In this document: one piece after another, positions 26,191 to 32,396 of the stretch
Layout: each line of letters opens with the position of its first letter
How positions within the stretch are numbered: position 1 is the stretch's first letter
Assembly: GCA_018064885.1 (NCBI GenBank)
Contig: JAGHUI010000079.1
Coordinates: 1-36,711, forward strand
DNA: 36,711 nucleotides
Source: Candidatus Minthosoma equi
GTDB taxonomy: Bacteria; Bacteroidota; Bacteroidia; Bacteroidales; Bacteroidaceae
Direction: 5' to 3'
Translations under genes and position numbers: made by a program
Notes under the pieces: generated by a model
Seen by the model: the letters and a program-made list of their open reading frames with translations, nothing else
What the model was told of the DNA's origin: nothing
The model's database searches: none

Positions 26191-26291
26191 CAACAATTAT
26201 AAAGTAATTAAGCAGACAACAGCGGCTTGTCATGCAAACTCATAACCAATAGTTCTTAATGCCGCAGGGACTAAAAAAACAATTATTTCTT

Positions 26292-26510
26292 ATGAAGAAT
26301 AAGACAACTGCAGCTATCCTCGCTATCCTCCTCGGTAGCATTGGTGTTCACAAGTTCTATCTCGGCAACGCACTGCCAGGTATCGTTTACCTTCTTTTCT
26401 GCTGGACTGGTATTCCATCAATCCTCGCTCTTATCGAAGGTATCATCTACCTCACTGACTCTGAAGAAGCATTCCAGGCTCGCGTAGAGGCTAAGAAGTT
26501 CTTCATGTAA
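26292..26510 (+). CDS. TM2 domain protein
   Basis: A 72-aa protein beginning MKNKTTAAILAILLGSIGVHKFYLG, two membrane helices joined by a short loop, the TM2 domain. An upstream in-frame ATG at 26259 would add 11 residues (MPQGLKKQLFL), but the start at 26292 is preferred because the other TM2 protein in the window begins with the same MKNKTTAA. TM2 proteins have no firmly known function. The gene has its own promoter and terminator and so is monocistronic. Confidence 0.85.
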   Translation: MKNKTTAAILAILLGSIGVHKFYLGNALPGIVYLLFCWTGIPSILALIEGIIYLTDSEEAFQARVEAKKFFM

Positions 26511-26831: not shown

Positions 26832-27263
26832 TTATGCGTCTAATATCTTCTTTTTCTCAGCATCGAACTCCTCTTGCGTAAGGATTCCATCATCAAGCAA
26901 TTTCTTCAAATCAGTTAATTGCTCTGCCTTTGAAGGCATGTCGGCTGGACTTGGTGCTGGAGTTGCAGGAGCAGAAGCTGCAGGTGGAGGTGGTACGGCA
27001 ATGAATTGTTGCTGAGCCACAGGACTTGCGCCTTTGTTGTACTTACGATCAAACTCCTCATCACTCATTGTGAGAAAGATAATGAATTCCACAAAATTAA
27101 TAAGTCCTATTATTGCTGTAGAAATTCCTAATGTAAAAACACCCACTAATAAGGAAACAAGCAAATATGTAATGCCGAGTCCAGCTTCGCCAAGATAAAA
27201 TCTATGAACACCGAATGGACCTAGGAAAAACGCTAAAAGAGCTGCAGTCGTTTTGTTTTTCAT
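26832..27263 (-). CDS. TM2 domain protein with SHOCT tail
   Basis: A 143-aa protein. Residues 1-65 form the TM2 part (MKNKTTAALLAFFLGPFGVHRFYLG, two membrane helices with a longer second segment). A Pro/Ala-rich linker (about 88-108, PPPPAASAPATPAPSPAD) leads to a C-terminal SHOCT motif, LKKLLDDGILTQEEFDAEKKKIL. The SHOCT motif is a short helical module often found at protein ends; its role is unclear. It has its own minus-strand promoter and is divergent from the NRPS-like gene. Confidence 0.88.
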   Translation of the reverse strand: MKNKTTAALLAFFLGPFGVHRFYLGEAGLGITYLLVSLLVGVFTLGISTAIIGLINFVEFIIFLTMSDEEFDRKYNKGASPVAQQQFIAVPPPPAASAPATPAPSPADMPSKAEQLTDLKKLLDDGILTQEEFDAEKKKILDA

Positions 27264-27398: not shown

Positions 27399-30300
27399 AT
27401 GCAGAATACACCGCAAACATACCCATTGACGAAGCCTCAGGTGGGCATATTTCTGTATTGTATGAGGAATCCCGATTCCACACAATACAACTTACCCATC
27501 ATGGTTGAACTTCCCTCTGACATAGATGCGGAACAGCTTTGTTGTGTCATTACTGGTAAATTCAGTTCGCAAAGTATGTTTTTCACGCGTTTCGTTATGG
27601 GAGAAAACGGCGAACCCCTCCAATATCTTTCAGAACGTAAAGAACTGAAAGTAGAAAGACTTGAGATGAGTGAGGAATACTTTGCCAAATACAAGAAAAA
27701 AGGAATGATTCGCCCTTTCAACCTTTTTGACGATGAGCCATTAGTTCGAATTGCTATATGTACCACGGAGAAATCTAAATACCTCATTACGGATGTGCAT
27801 CATATAATATGTGACGGCTGGTCATTGCACAATCTCTTCTCTATGTACTCCGAATTGTGTACGATGCACGATGTCACAATAAAAGACAACAAAAAAAGTG
27901 AGGAAGAATCATCTGCCATCCGAAAAAGATTCCAAGAAATATCTTTCGCAGATTTGAGCAAGCACATAGGCAGCCCAACAGGTCAACAGATAAGATGCTC
28001 AGAGATGCTGAATAAACGTGAGATTGACACTTGGTGCAAACAACGAGGAGTGCCTGCAAGCTGTTTCTTCATGGCAGCATTCTGCATCGTCCTATCACGA
28101 TTCACAAGATTGAACCGCATGGGATTCTACACCATGAGTCATGGACGTACAGACAGAAGTCTATGGAATGCCATGGGTATGTTTGTCAGATCCGTACCTA
28201 TGCTGGCTGAGATAAACTGGAAATCAGATTGCATAGCACTAATGAAAGCGCTTCACAGTGAGCACATCTCGACTCTCCGACACAGCGACGAATACACAAT
28301 GACAGAACTCTGTCAGGAGAGAGGCATGGATCCTGCCGTATATTTCAATTTCCTTGGCTGGGAACAGATGAGAGAACGCCTTGCATTGGCAAATGGTGTC
28401 GTGCTGCCAGCAGAACAGCCATGCCGTCCTTCCGTAGATGACAATTTAGGAGTAGAAATCTATCTTAATGGAGAGGATTATGAAATAAGATGCCAATCCA
28501 GCGAGGCTGTAAATCCCGAATCTGTTGTAAGGAATGTAGCACAAAGCATGAAATCCGTAGCTTTGTGGATGATGCAGCACGCAATGGAATCCATCAGTAA
28601 CGCTCCCGTTGTTTCTGACAGCGAAGCAAAGAAGTTAATGGCGATAGCACAAGGCGAACACATTGATTTCAATCCAGATGACACATTCTACTCTTTGTTC
28701 CACAAACAAGTCCTGTCAACTCCAGATGCTATAGCCATTGTTGATGCAGAAAGAAAACTTACATACGCAGAACTGGAGCAGGAGAGTGCCAATGCAGCAG
28801 ACAAACTTATTACAGATGAAATAAAGGCTGGAGATTGCATTTGTGTGCCAATGGATAGGAATGCAACATTCCTTATAAACGTCATTGCAGCAGAAAGAAT
28901 AGGAGCAACTGTTTCACTCGGTGGAATAGCAGGAAGAGGAGGCAGCAAAGACACATCTTATATCATCTACACATCAGGCTCTACAGGTTCGCCAAAAGGT
29001 GTTATGATATCTCACAAGGCAAAAGCAAACCTTATCCAATTTATTGCAAAAGAGTGGAAACTGACACCTCAAAGCCGAATCTGCTGCCATTCCGACTTTG
29101 CTTTCGATGCTTCCGTTGAAGATTTATTTCCTGTGCTGACTGTTGGTGGAACTCTATATATAATACCAGAGGATATCCGCAGAGACATTAACAAAATACA
29201 CGATTTCATCGTAGGAAATGGCATCACCGGCGGATGTTTCACCACACAATTCGGACAAATGCTCTTGCAGAGATATCCAGATCTTCCTATGGAATATCTT
29301 GTTGTTGGTGGTGAACGAATGACGATAGTACCTGAGTGCCATTGCCGGCTCATAAACACCTATGGTCCTACAGAGTTTACAGTCGATGCCACATATCATG
29401 TTATTGACAAGAATCGCAATTACGACACAATACCTATCGGTCGTCCTGTGGCAAACACTTCAGCATACGTGCTTGATGACTGCTTGCAACTATTGCCTCA
29501 AGGCATGGAAGGTGAACTTTGTCTTGCAGGAGTTCAGATGGCAAATGGTTATGTTGACGATGCAGAATTGACAAGCAAGAAGTTTGTTACCACACCTTTT
29601 GGCGTGAAAGTTTATAGAACTGGTGACCTTGTTCGCTGGAATGAGCATAAAGAACTGGAATTCATCGGAAGAATAGACTCCCAATTGAAAATTCGCGGGT
29701 TCCGAGTAGAACCTGCAGAGATTGAAGCGAAATTAGCAGAACTGCCTGGCGTAATGATGCAGACGGTGCAACCATTCTTCTCAGGAGGGGACATTCATTT
29801 GTGTGCATATTACGTTGCCGAAAAGAAAATAAGCACAAAAGAAATGAGGGCTTATCTTTCTGGCATTCTTGAAAATTACATGGTTCCTGCATGCTACATA
29901 CAATTGGAAGAAATGCCTCTGACATCAAGCGGGAAGATTGACAAGAAGCGCCTTCCTCGTCCTATGCTTGCAAGCGACACCGAATACATAGAACCTAAAG
30001 ATGGAGCTGAGAGTATAATCGCTAACGCATTCGGCAAAGTTCTTGGAATAGAAAACGTTGGCGCTAACGATGATTTCTTCAGCATTGGAGGCACCTCGCT
30101 CAATGCCATCGGCGTCGTTGTTGATGCAGAACGACAAGGCATAAACATTGTTTTGAACGATGTGTTCAAGCACAAAACACCAAGAGCTATTGCCATGAAC
30201 AATGGACCACACACAGCAAACCAGGAAGTTCCAACAAACAGTATCATAGAGCTTGACACACCGTTCCTTCTTCATAAACATATTATATTATTAGGAGCAA

Positions 30301-31349
30301 CGGGCTTCCTTGGAATACACATTCTGAATGAGTTGTTAATCTCTTCCGAATACCGCATAACCTGTCCTGTGAGAACAAAAGATGGAGTTGACGGGAAAAA
30401 TAGGCTGATCAACACTTACAGCTGGTATTTCGGCCAACAGATTGATCTACAGAAATTGCAGAATCGTCTTTTTATTATCAACAACGAGCAATGGATGGCA
30501 GATGCCGCCCTTCACGAACCTGCAACAATTATTAACTGCATGGGCAACGTGAAGCATTTCTCGTCTGACGACAGCATAATGGACACTAATGTGGAGAAGG
30601 TGAGACGGATTGTAGATTTCTGTATAAACACAGGCAGTAACCTTGTTCATGTATCTAGCATTAGCATTGCTGGTATCGCAGAAAAAAACAGGGTTAACGC
30701 AGGGCTTGTGCTGACAGAACACGATTACAGCATCGGGCAGAATGTGAACTTTAACGAATATGTTAAATCAAAGTTCATAGCTGAAGGTATAATTCTGGAT
30801 GCGATAAAGAAAAAGGCGCTGAATGCCAGAATTATGCGAGTTGGCAATCTGGGACCAAGAAGCAATGATGGCAAGTTTCAAATCAACCCGGAAAGCAACA
30901 CATTCTACTCTGCCATTCAAGCACTTGCCCTTCTTGGCTGCGTGCCAGAAAGCATGAGAGAGAGCGCCATTGACATTTCTCCTGTAGATGTTGCTGCCCA
31001 AGCCATTCTTGCTCTGATTCCACATTCAGGAAAAGAGGTTACATTCCATCCGTACAACAGCCGTCCTACTACTATCAGCTCCTTGATCAAGACATTGAAC
31101 AGCACAGGCATTGAATTATCCTTTGTTCCTGATTCCGAATTTGACAAAATGTTAGACCTCGCAAAACAGAATGCATCTCTAATCCATAAGCTGCACCCTT
31201 TGTTAGCATACCAATTAGGCGAATCCGAGATGCAAAGAGTGCCTTGCACAAACGAACACACAACCAAGGTACTGAAAGAGCATGACATGGAATGGCATGA
31301 TTCGCTTTTAAACGGTCTCTTGCCAAATGTTAGCGGAAAACTTGCATAA
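27399..31349 (+). CDS. single-module NRPS-like enzyme: condensation, adenylation, carrier, reductase
   Basis: A 1316-aa protein. Condensation domain about 1-420, with YPLTKPQVGIF at the start and the catalytic HHIICDG at 134-140. Adenylation domain about 435-870, with YIIYTSGSTGSPKG at 521-534, NTYGPTE, YRTGDLVRW, GRIDSQLKIRGFRVEP and the closing Lys in SGKIDKKRL; its A2 region is short by roughly 50 residues compared with GrsA. Carrier domain with DDFFSIGGTSL, phosphopantetheine Ser900. Reductase domain about 950-1316, with NADPH-binding GATGFLG at 966-972 and YVKSK (Tyr1121, Lys1125). This architecture should join an acyl group to one amino acid and release it reductively as an aldehyde or alcohol. 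There is no phosphopantetheinyl transferase nearby. Confidence 0.93.
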   Translation: MQNTPQTYPLTKPQVGIFLYCMRNPDSTQYNLPIMVELPSDIDAEQLCCVITGKFSSQSMFFTRFVMGENGEPLQYLSERKELKVERLEMSEEYFAKYKKKGMIRPFNLFDDEPLVRIAICTTEKSKYLITDVHHIICDGWSLHNLFSMYSELCTMHDVTIKDNKKSEEESSAIRKRFQEISFADLSKHIGSPTGQQIRCSEMLNKREIDTWCKQRGVPASCFFMAAFCIVLSRFTRLNRMGFYTMSHGRTDRSLWNAMGMFVRSVPMLAEINWKSDCIALMKALHSEHISTLRHSDEYTMTELCQERGMDPAVYFNFLGWEQMRERLALANGVVLPAEQPCRPSVDDNLGVEIYLNGEDYEIRCQSSEAVNPESVVRNVAQSMKSVALWMMQHAMESISNAPVVSDSEAKKLMAIAQGEHIDFNPDDTFYSLFHKQVLSTPDAIAIVDAERKLTYAELEQESANAADKLITDEIKAGDCICVPMDRNATFLINVIAAERIGATVSLGGIAGRGGSKDTSYIIYTSGSTGSPKGVMISHKAKANLIQFIAKEWKLTPQSRICCHSDFAFDASVEDLFPVLTVGGTLYIIPEDIRRDINKIHDFIVGNGITGGCFTTQFGQMLLQRYPDLPMEYLVVGGERMTIVPECHCRLINTYGPTEFTVDATYHVIDKNRNYDTIPIGRPVANTSAYVLDDCLQLLPQGMEGELCLAGVQMANGYVDDAELTSKKFVTTPFGVKVYRTGDLVRWNEHKELEFIGRIDSQLKIRGFRVEPAEIEAKLAELPGVMMQTVQPFFSGGDIHLCAYYVAEKKISTKEMRAYLSGILENYMVPACYIQLEEMPLTSSGKIDKKRLPRPMLASDTEYIEPKDGAESIIANAFGKVLGIENVGANDDFFSIGGTSLNAIGVVVDAERQGINIVLNDVFKHKTPRAIAMNNGPHTANQEVPTNSIIELDTPFLLHKHIILLGATGFLGIHILNELLISSEYRITCPVRTKDGVDGKNRLINTYSWYFGQQIDLQKLQNRLFIINNEQWMADAALHEPATIINCMGNVKHFSSDDSIMDTNVEKVRRIVDFCINTGSNLVHVSSISIAGIAEKNRVNAGLVLTEHDYSIGQNVNFNEYVKSKFIAEGIILDAIKKKALNARIMRVGNLGPRSNDGKFQINPESNTFYSAIQALALLGCVPESMRESAIDISPVDVAAQAILALIPHSGKEVTFHPYNSRPTTISSLIKTLNSTGIELSFVPDSEFDKMLDLAKQNASLIHKLHPLLAYQLGESEMQRVPCTNEHTTKVLKEHDMEWHDSLLNGLLPNVSGKLA

Positions 31350-31399: not shown

Positions 31400-31473
31400 C
31401 GGGATGTAGCGCAGTTGGTTAGCGTACACGTCTGGGGGGCGTGTGGTCGCCAGTTCGAGTCTGGTCATCCCGA
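31400..31473 (+). tRNA. tRNA-Pro (GGG)
   Basis: A complete cloverleaf: acceptor arm CGGGATG/CATCCCG, D arm GCGC/GCGT, anticodon stem CACGT/GCGTG with loop CTGGGGG giving anticodon GGG, and T arm with TTCGAGT loop. The discriminator is A; CCA is not encoded. It is 50 nt after the NRPS-like gene. Confidence 0.96.
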
Positions 31474-31502
31474 CAACAAGCACAAGAGTCTGAAACACTT
31501 TT

Positions 31503-32396
31503 ATGAACAGATTTTTAGGACACATAGGAGCATTATTCGTGATGTTCGTGTGGGGCGCAACATTCGTCAACAGCAAAGTGCTTTTGACTAACGGGTTGCT
31601 ACCCGACGAGATATTTCTTCTCCGCTCACTCCAGGCATACATCATTCTCGCTATTATATATCACAAGAAATGGCTGGCAAACACATGGAAAGACGAACTC
31701 ATCTTCCTCGGATTAGGTGTATTTGGAGGCAGCTTGTATTTTCTCTCCGAAAATAGCGCATTGGAGTATGGCACAACCTCCAATGTCAGCATTCTTGTAG
31801 GCTCTACCCCATTGCTCACAGCCCTTCTAATAGGCAGTATATACAAATCGGAACGTCTCAGCTCCTTCCAATGCGCAGGTTCCGTAATAGCCTTCATAGG
31901 TATGACACTCGTTGTGCTTAATGGCCAGCTATTCCTCAAGCTAAATCCTCTTGGCGATGCGCTTGCTCTAGCTGCATCTGCCACATGGGCTGTATATTCG
32001 TTGCTTATGCGTTTCGTCTCTGGAAAATACAACGTTATTTTCATAACTCGCAAAGTGTTCTTCTATGGCCTGATAACCATATTGCCTGTGCTGATTATCA
32101 CTCATAACGAAATGCCACGCTTGGAGATTCTCACAGAGCCGATTATTTATTGCAATCTGCTTTTCCTTGGCGTTCTAGCAAGCAGCATCTGCTATCTTCT
32201 GTGGAATAAGGTTCTTCATGTAATCGGCACCATCCGCGCCACAAACTACATCTACCTCCAAAGCATAGTCACAATGGTCACAGCCAAGATTGTGCTTGAC
32301 GAAAAGATCACATGGATGGCTATACTCGGAGTCGTTGTCCTGATTTCAGGACTCGTCATGGTGCAGAAAAAGAAAAAGACAGGCGGTTATGTCTGA
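31503..32396 (+). CDS. EamA family (drug/metabolite transporter superfamily) permease
   Basis: A 297-aa protein with about ten membrane helices arranged as two EamA repeats; the N-terminus (GALFVMFVWGATFVNSK) and the second repeat (GDALALAASATWAVYSLLMRF) are typical, as is the closing GVVVLISGLVMVQKKKK. Substrates of such permeases range over amino acids and metabolites and cannot be inferred here. It starts 30 nt after the tRNA and has no obvious partner gene. Confidence 0.9.
   Translation: MNRFLGHIGALFVMFVWGATFVNSKVLLTNGLLPDEIFLLRSLQAYIILAIIYHKKWLANTWKDELIFLGLGVFGGSLYFLSENSALEYGTTSNVSILVGSTPLLTALLIGSIYKSERLSSFQCAGSVIAFIGMTLVVLNGQLFLKLNPLGDALALAASATWAVYSLLMRFVSGKYNVIFITRKVFFYGLITILPVLIITHNEMPRLEILTEPIIYCNLLFLGVLASSICYLLWNKVLHVIGTIRATNYIYLQSIVTMVTAKIVLDEKITWMAILGVVVLISGLVMVQKKKKTGGYV

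Follow-up and report, generated by a model that had tools for sequence, protein, structure and literature searches.

MxcG, the myxochelin synthetase, has a condensation-adenylation-peptidyl carrier protein-reductase (C-A-PCP-R) order, activates Lys, and releases its product reductively; myxochelin uses aryl donors. AusA and the gut dipeptide-aldehyde synthetases have two adenylation-thiolation (A-T) modules ahead of the reductase (R) domain, and their dipeptide aldehydes act on proteases. In the gut enzymes (ruminopeptin), terminal reductive release gives aldehydes (PMC12327764). Smaller systems include the livipeptin synthetase, a small nonribosomal peptide synthetase (NRPS) for a putative Arg-containing protease inhibitor that is a small peptide aldehyde (PMC10548850), and ATRed of Xenorhabdus, a minimal synthetase with a terminal reductase (PMC7586950). 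Here, we analyzed a single-module C-A-T-R NRPS gene of Candidatus Minthosoma equi (assembly GCA_018064885.1), which lies at positions 27399 to 31349 of the 36,711-nucleotide stretch JAGHUI010000079.1, one whole contig that we call the window. We lean toward reading it, from its sequence, as a one-gene pathway that would N-acylate a basic amino acid with a fatty acid and release the product as an N-acyl amino aldehyde.

On the features tested, the window enzyme is placed outside the MxcG, AusA/gut dipeptide aldehyde, livipeptin, and PosA families. Its length is similar to that of MxcG (NCBIfam model NF038078, 1442 positions) and its A to R portion aligns with that model at 4e-101, but it fails the model's cutoff (339 bits versus 2300). 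AusA is its best NCBIfam match by E value (1.7e-167), yet 559 of 2500 bits is again below the cutoff; the solved R domain of AusA is close to that of the window, but the window enzyme has one module rather than two. With PosA, it has in common the pocket pattern D-x-E-x-x-G-T-V-x-K, with Glu at position 3, whereas PosA and the epsilon-poly-lysine synthetases polymerize and have a membrane C-terminal part where the window enzyme has T and then R to its C terminus (PMC10522769). The livipeptin synthetase lacks a C domain, which the window enzyme has, and needs a tRNA-utilizing L/F transferase (PMC10548850). Similarly, ATRed is described as A-T-R without a C domain, uses Phe, and forms pyrazines, unlike the window enzyme (PMC7586950). 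Fungal Lps3 was rejected as a C-A-T-R precedent, its C domain sitting between A-T and R (PMC13278392). In work on rumen NRPS clusters, some Prevotella biosynthetic gene clusters were more expressed in less feed-efficient steers, with no structure given (PMC8241843).

Architecture and family of the C-A-T-R enzyme

The gene and its domains, all on the plus strand, are as follows.

27399..31349, +: C-A-T-R single-module NRPS, 1316 amino acids (aa) (open frame and Pfam)
27414..28673, +: initiating C domain, residues 6-425 (Pfam, tree, and clade profile)
27798..27818, +: HHIICDG catalytic motif of the C domain, residues 134-140 (residues checked)
28680..29996, +: A domain, residues 428-866, code DAECVGTVDK (Pfam, alignment, and model)
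28908..28955, +: short Gly-rich linker between motifs A2 and A3, residues 504-519 (alignment and model)
29106..29387, +: specificity-pocket region, residues 570-663 (D570, A571, E574, C613, V635, G637, T654, V662, and D663; alignment and residue check)
29934-29936, +: Lys846, the A10 lysine of the A domain (residue check)
30012..30203, +: T domain, residues 872-935, with phosphopantetheine Ser900 (Pfam and residue check)
30270..31298, +: terminal NAD(P)H reductase (R) domain, residues 958-1300, with Ser1087, Tyr1121, and Lys1125 (Pfam and residue check)

Along the protein, Pfam finds Condensation, AMP-binding, PP-binding, and NAD_binding_4 in that order, each above its cutoff. A residue check found HHIICDG intact in the C domain, YTSGSTGSPKG, YGPTE, and Lys846 in the A domain, GGTSL and Ser900 in the T domain, and GATGFLG and the Ser1087/Tyr1121/Lys1125 triad in the R domain. 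In an invariant-column test, in which each of 12 proteins was left out in turn and scored on the columns invariant in the other 11, the window enzyme kept 76 of 78 columns in A, 11 of 11 in T, and 25 of 27 in R (112/116 in total). The stand-alone C-A-PCP-R (that is, C-A-T-R) enzyme of the original prediction was thus borne out by the open frame, the Pfam order, and the motifs, and the synthetase with intact motifs is confirmed as real. The module had also been called complete. This holds for the four domains and their motifs but not for the A domain, which is about 50 to 60 residues short between A2 and A3.

Relatives were collected by a contig scan (query A1), of which the best 80 matches were taken; an earlier contig scan (query P0001) had given no relative. 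Among the matches listed, 12 stand-alone relatives carry the code DAEC[VC]GTV[DN]K, variable at positions 5 (V/C) and 9 (D/N), a pattern that the window code also follows. They come from 10 genomes (G019, G009, G011, G005, G043, G089, G194 [cut by a contig end], G231, G205, and G192) and two metagenome-assembled genome loci, L085 and L094, both Prevotella from water buffalo omasum. Modules of long assembly lines (G307 and G111) carry the family code as well, and a sister group of stand-alone C-A-T-R proteins (G042, G392, and L078) has the code DAEGTGVDDK. The codes DAECVGTVDK, DAECCGTVDK, and DAEGTGVDDK were not found in the open-license PMC literature, and no title on a stand-alone C-A-T-R enzyme from Prevotella was noticed among the open-license PMC titles listed.

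In a tree of 83 C domains (quick method, LG+G4), the window C domain falls in a 15-row clade (Shimodaira-Hasegawa-like approximate likelihood ratio test [SH-aLRT] value of 100) together with those of 13 further stand-alone C-A-T-R proteins and the first C domain of a 5774-aa line in G307. The predicted starter C domain was upheld here, as the tree groups it with C domains that stand first in their proteins. A clade profile built from 12 C domains and searched against 399 family genomes at 1e-60 matched 56 of them, 15 with at least 510.9 bits, followed by 301.6 bits (G114) and then at most 258.7 bits. The window scored 567 bits, being itself a profile row. Profile rows had been supplied by 11 of the 15 high-scoring genomes (all but G194, G335, G077, and G307), and G019, the genome of the twelfth row, was not among the 56 matched and was probably not drawn in the sample. 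The frames in the 15 genomes comprise 12 of 1318 to 1465 aa, two of 464 and 484 aa, and one long line; G335 and G077 were counted by C-domain score alone, architecture aside. By these comparisons, the window enzyme belongs to a small family of lone C-A-T-R enzymes and is not a singleton. Both the existence of this family and the shortened A domain go beyond the original prediction.

Other arrangements were seen among the collected loci. The 5774-aa synthetase of G307 (contig C5; L067/L162) is multimodular, with a first C domain of the C-A-T-R clade and a second A domain that has the family code; a fusion of a MatE protein with a histidine-kinase-like ATPase domain is encoded upstream, and ABC, MacB, HlyD, and outer-membrane efflux genes lie downstream. 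In G042 (L037, 6569-18277) and G392 (L063, 1499-13199), the DAEGTGVDDK C-A-T-R gene lies directly 3' of a two-module C-A-T-C-A-T-R gene on the same strand, and in G392 a SpoIIE/HATPase gene stands ahead of the pair; the T profile missed some T domains in two-module proteins. Clostridia also have stand-alone C-A-T-R proteins (L098, 5992-10350, DFWNIGMVHK; L103, 5986-10212, DLTKIGEVGK), with C domains of a different clade.

Predicted amino acid substrate, acyl donor, and release

An alignment of 276 A-domain rows from the loci, with duplicates and cut frames included, gave the window code as DAECVGTVDK, identical to the code read by hand before. As a control, the same script was run on Bacillus paralicheniformis loci L123/L120, where it returned DAWFLGNVVK, DAKDIGVVDK, DGFFLGVVYK, DAESIGSVCK, and DVGEIGSVD- (which ends at the locus end), and then DAFTVAAVCK, DSELTAEVCK, DLTKVGHIGK, and DLTKIGEVGK. 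This order fits that of bacitracin, Leu-Glu-Ile-Lys-Orn and Phe-His-Asp-Asn. In the control, the Lys and His modules have Glu at position 3, and the Glu and Orn modules have Asp at position 9. Asp at position 9 (331), which had been taken as a sign of a positively charged substrate, is therefore not diagnostic, because the bacitracin Glu module carries it too. The window code shares 6 of 10 letters with the Lys module and likewise 6 of 10 with the Glu module, and letter matching alone does not decide between a Lys-type and a Glu-type substrate. The Orn module has Glu at position 4 in the published description, as in our readout (PMC10522769).

The strongest support for a basic substrate is, by analogy, the published biochemistry of PosA, which has the code D M E H N G T V S K and prefers Orn (PMC10522769). 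The side-chain amine is bonded in PosA by the Glu of position 3, mutation of which abolishes activity; Thr (position 7) and Ser (position 9) help to bind the amine, and chain length is set by position 2, which is Phe in the PDAP/PDAB synthetase, Met in PosA, and Ala in the poly-lysine synthetase (PMC10522769). The same source reports Arg activation by Bdello_A, whose code is D S E C Y G G V T K, and notes that the acidic residue may occupy another code position in other Orn enzymes (PMC10522769). In the window code, positions 2, 3, 7, and 9 are Ala, Glu, Thr, and Asp. Given these residues and the PosA biochemistry, the likeliest substrate would be Lys, followed by Arg or Orn. The earlier argument from Glu at 239 (code position 3) to a basic substrate is thereby supported, and whether Glu and Asp line the pocket is answered through homology to PosA. 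Of the Lys, Orn, or Arg named before, the basic class is retained by the code, with Lys fitting at least as well as Arg.

Next, we considered the acyl donor. The assembly shows one C-domain gene, that of the window, and three PP-binding domains: an 82-aa free-standing frame on contig C8, presumably the fatty-acid acyl carrier protein (ACP), the window T domain, and an AMP-binding/PP-binding/acyltransferase fusion on contig C68. The isochorismatase for an MxcG-type dihydroxybenzoate donor (PF00857) had no match in the window's genome (G000), whereas 12 of 14 control genomes matched. Because there is one C-domain gene, no isochorismatase match, and only three carrier domains, the donor is probably fatty acyl, and we infer that the enzyme would work like MxcG with a fatty instead of an aryl donor. 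A single phosphopantetheinyl transferase (PPTase)-superfamily hit, a 193-aa protein, was found in the genome. The C68 fusion (L158, 3730-6252) combines AMP-binding and PP-binding domains with a PlsC-type acyltransferase domain in 840 aa; other genomes of the genus also have A-T matches in frames of about this length. It was rejected as an amino acid donor because it is such a fusion.

The R domain matches 6vtj (121 bits), which is of archaeal origin, and the AusA R domain (99.5 to 100 bits) better than it matches MxaA (44.8 bits) or 8v1x (42.1 bits), which supports the terminal reductase noted before. Because of this closeness, two-electron release is suggested.

In the proposed pathway, the genome's PPTase would arm the T domain, and the A domain would activate a basic amino acid, with L-Lys the leading candidate ahead of Arg or Orn, and load it onto the T domain. 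The initiating C domain would then transfer a fatty acyl group to the alpha-amine of the amino acid, with acyl-CoA or acyl-ACP as the source, a step proposed because of the C clade and the lack of other carriers. Because of the relatives of the R domain, this domain would release the N-acyl amino aldehyde with NAD(P)H; the aldehyde could stay free, hydrate, cyclize, or undergo further reduction. The window lineage would be able to dispense with the A2-A3 stretch of its A domain. The leupeptin-like trypsin inhibitor of the original prediction is a guess. More tentatively, Prevotella-type Bacteroidota might use such one-gene pathways, with no conserved neighbors, to make N-fatty-acyl lysinal- or argininal-type aldehydes that inhibit Lys/Arg-specific proteases of neighbors or the host, with the A2-A3-less A domain of the window being active as a natural minimal adenylation domain. 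If so, Prevotella-type bacteria would be linked to the control of trypsin-like or Lys/Arg-specific proteolysis. A single-gene family that acylates a basic amino acid directly would be easy to express and test, and the shortened A domain opens a testable question as to which part of the adenylation fold is dispensable.

The shortened adenylation domain and rival readings

Between A2 and A3, the window A domain has 16 residues, forming the Gly-rich linker; across 235 distinct A domains the median is 67, and most have about 65, although this count varies with the alignment. Fewer than 45 residues were found in 9 of the 235 rows, with the window's 16 counted twice among them; the others have 0 and 0 (frames starting at a locus end), 2 (the PlsC fusion), 18 (a frame starting at a contig end), 29 (L004), 30 (L038_4496), and 36 (L094). 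The predicted fold is otherwise normal. The A-domain model has a predicted local distance difference test (pLDDT) score of 90.8, and its core aligns with LgrA (5jnf) over 330 residues at 1.8 Å in a VIA-align realignment of Foldseek's best 1000 chains. A second lineage (L004 and L094) shortened this segment independently of the window (two changes on the tree). L004 (G019) and L094 are 78% identical over 1347 columns with both frames open, which suggests upkeep of the short form.

Several points weigh against the acylation and reductive release proposed above. The A2-A3 segment missing from the window A domain is kept by nearly all relatives, and A-domain activity is therefore not assured. None of the 12 proteins scores lower in C than the window enzyme, whose C domain keeps 36 of 47 invariant columns. 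Furthermore, L004 and L094 are not a clean witness for working short A domains, because L004 is the most diverged in A (76/90) and R (25/37), the lowest values of the set (it keeps 36/43 columns in C and 11/12 in T), and the A3 motif is altered (QRKA in L004 and QRKG in L094, where xPKG is expected). L085 (5956-10035), an outlier with Asn at position 9, has the family code yet lacks GATGxxG and TGDL by simple pattern and may be altered or decaying. In addition, the bacitracin Glu module matches as many code letters as the Lys module does, and the genome (3.51 Mb in 114 contigs) is 97.56% complete, so a second carrier could be missing. The short segment, the 11 lost columns of the C domain, and the divergence of the other shortened lineage would fit a protein that is inactive or decaying, its A domain disabled by the A2-A3 loss. 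We consider this unlikely, given that 1316 codons are open, that the A, T, and R domains retain nearly all of their invariant columns with the catalytic residues intact, that the second lineage was shortened independently and kept its frame open in two genomes at that level of identity, and that the A-domain model is confident. For the window alone, it is possible that an assembly deletion produced the gap.

Even with an active enzyme, the product might differ from the N-acyl amino aldehyde that we favor. R domains of the two-electron and four-electron kinds are both known, and the MxaA R domain also matches that of the window, so the product might be an alcohol, made by four-electron reduction, or a cyclic imine, serving as a signal or lipid rather than as a protease-inhibiting aldehyde. 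This is possible but, to us, doubtful, since the AusA R domain and 6vtj match better, although the electron count cannot be read from sequence similarity. A di- or oligopeptide aldehyde, made from an aminoacyl or peptidyl group that another synthetase donates in trans, would have a parallel in the sister genes of G042 and G392, next to their two-module genes. However, this seems very improbable for a genome in which no other C domain was found and no other carriers than the 82-aa frame and the PlsC fusion. An acidic or neutral substrate (e.g., Glu or Gln) would make the product not basic and is suggested by the bacitracin Glu code, DAKDIGVVDK, whose six shared letters include Asp at position 9. 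We regard it as improbable, because Glu at position 3 of the window would repel a carboxylate where the Glu module has Lys, and because Glu at position 3 is essential for Orn activation in PosA (PMC10522769).

Genomic surroundings

The neighbors of the synthetase gene are LemA, CoaX, two TM2 genes, tRNA-Pro, EamA, and EPSP synthase. The TM2-domain genes (26259-26510, plus strand; 26832-27263, minus strand) face each other just upstream, and one has a SHOCT domain. When 19 other window genes, a part of the window's open reading frames, were compared with 13 C-A-T-R loci (tblastn at 1e-10, flanks of 0 to about 12 kb), no match was found. In the loci examined, the synthetase gene has no conserved partner. 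The EamA exporter at 31503 was rejected as a partner, being present in none of the six other genomes of the genus with a stand-alone C-A-T-R gene (G005, G009, G011, G019, G042, and G043); at 1e-50, it matches in 12 of 45 same-genus genomes, its own included. The upstream CoaX was rejected as a cofactor partner, as it did not recur in the 19-gene comparison, and the tRNA-Pro gene (31400-31474) was taken as incidental rather than as a clue to a tRNA donor.

The neighbors of the relatives were grouped by BLAST, with Pfam run on one member per group. In four same-genus genomes (L033 to L036), Pterin_bind, DAC (CdaA-type), and Mur-ligase-type genes form a run that precedes the C-A-T-R gene, and three of these genomes encode, downstream of it, a protein for which Pfam gave no match in the single member scanned (L033, 325 aa). 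Elsewhere, the neighbors include an S13 peptidase (L064 to L066) and an RlmL-like methyltransferase (L062).

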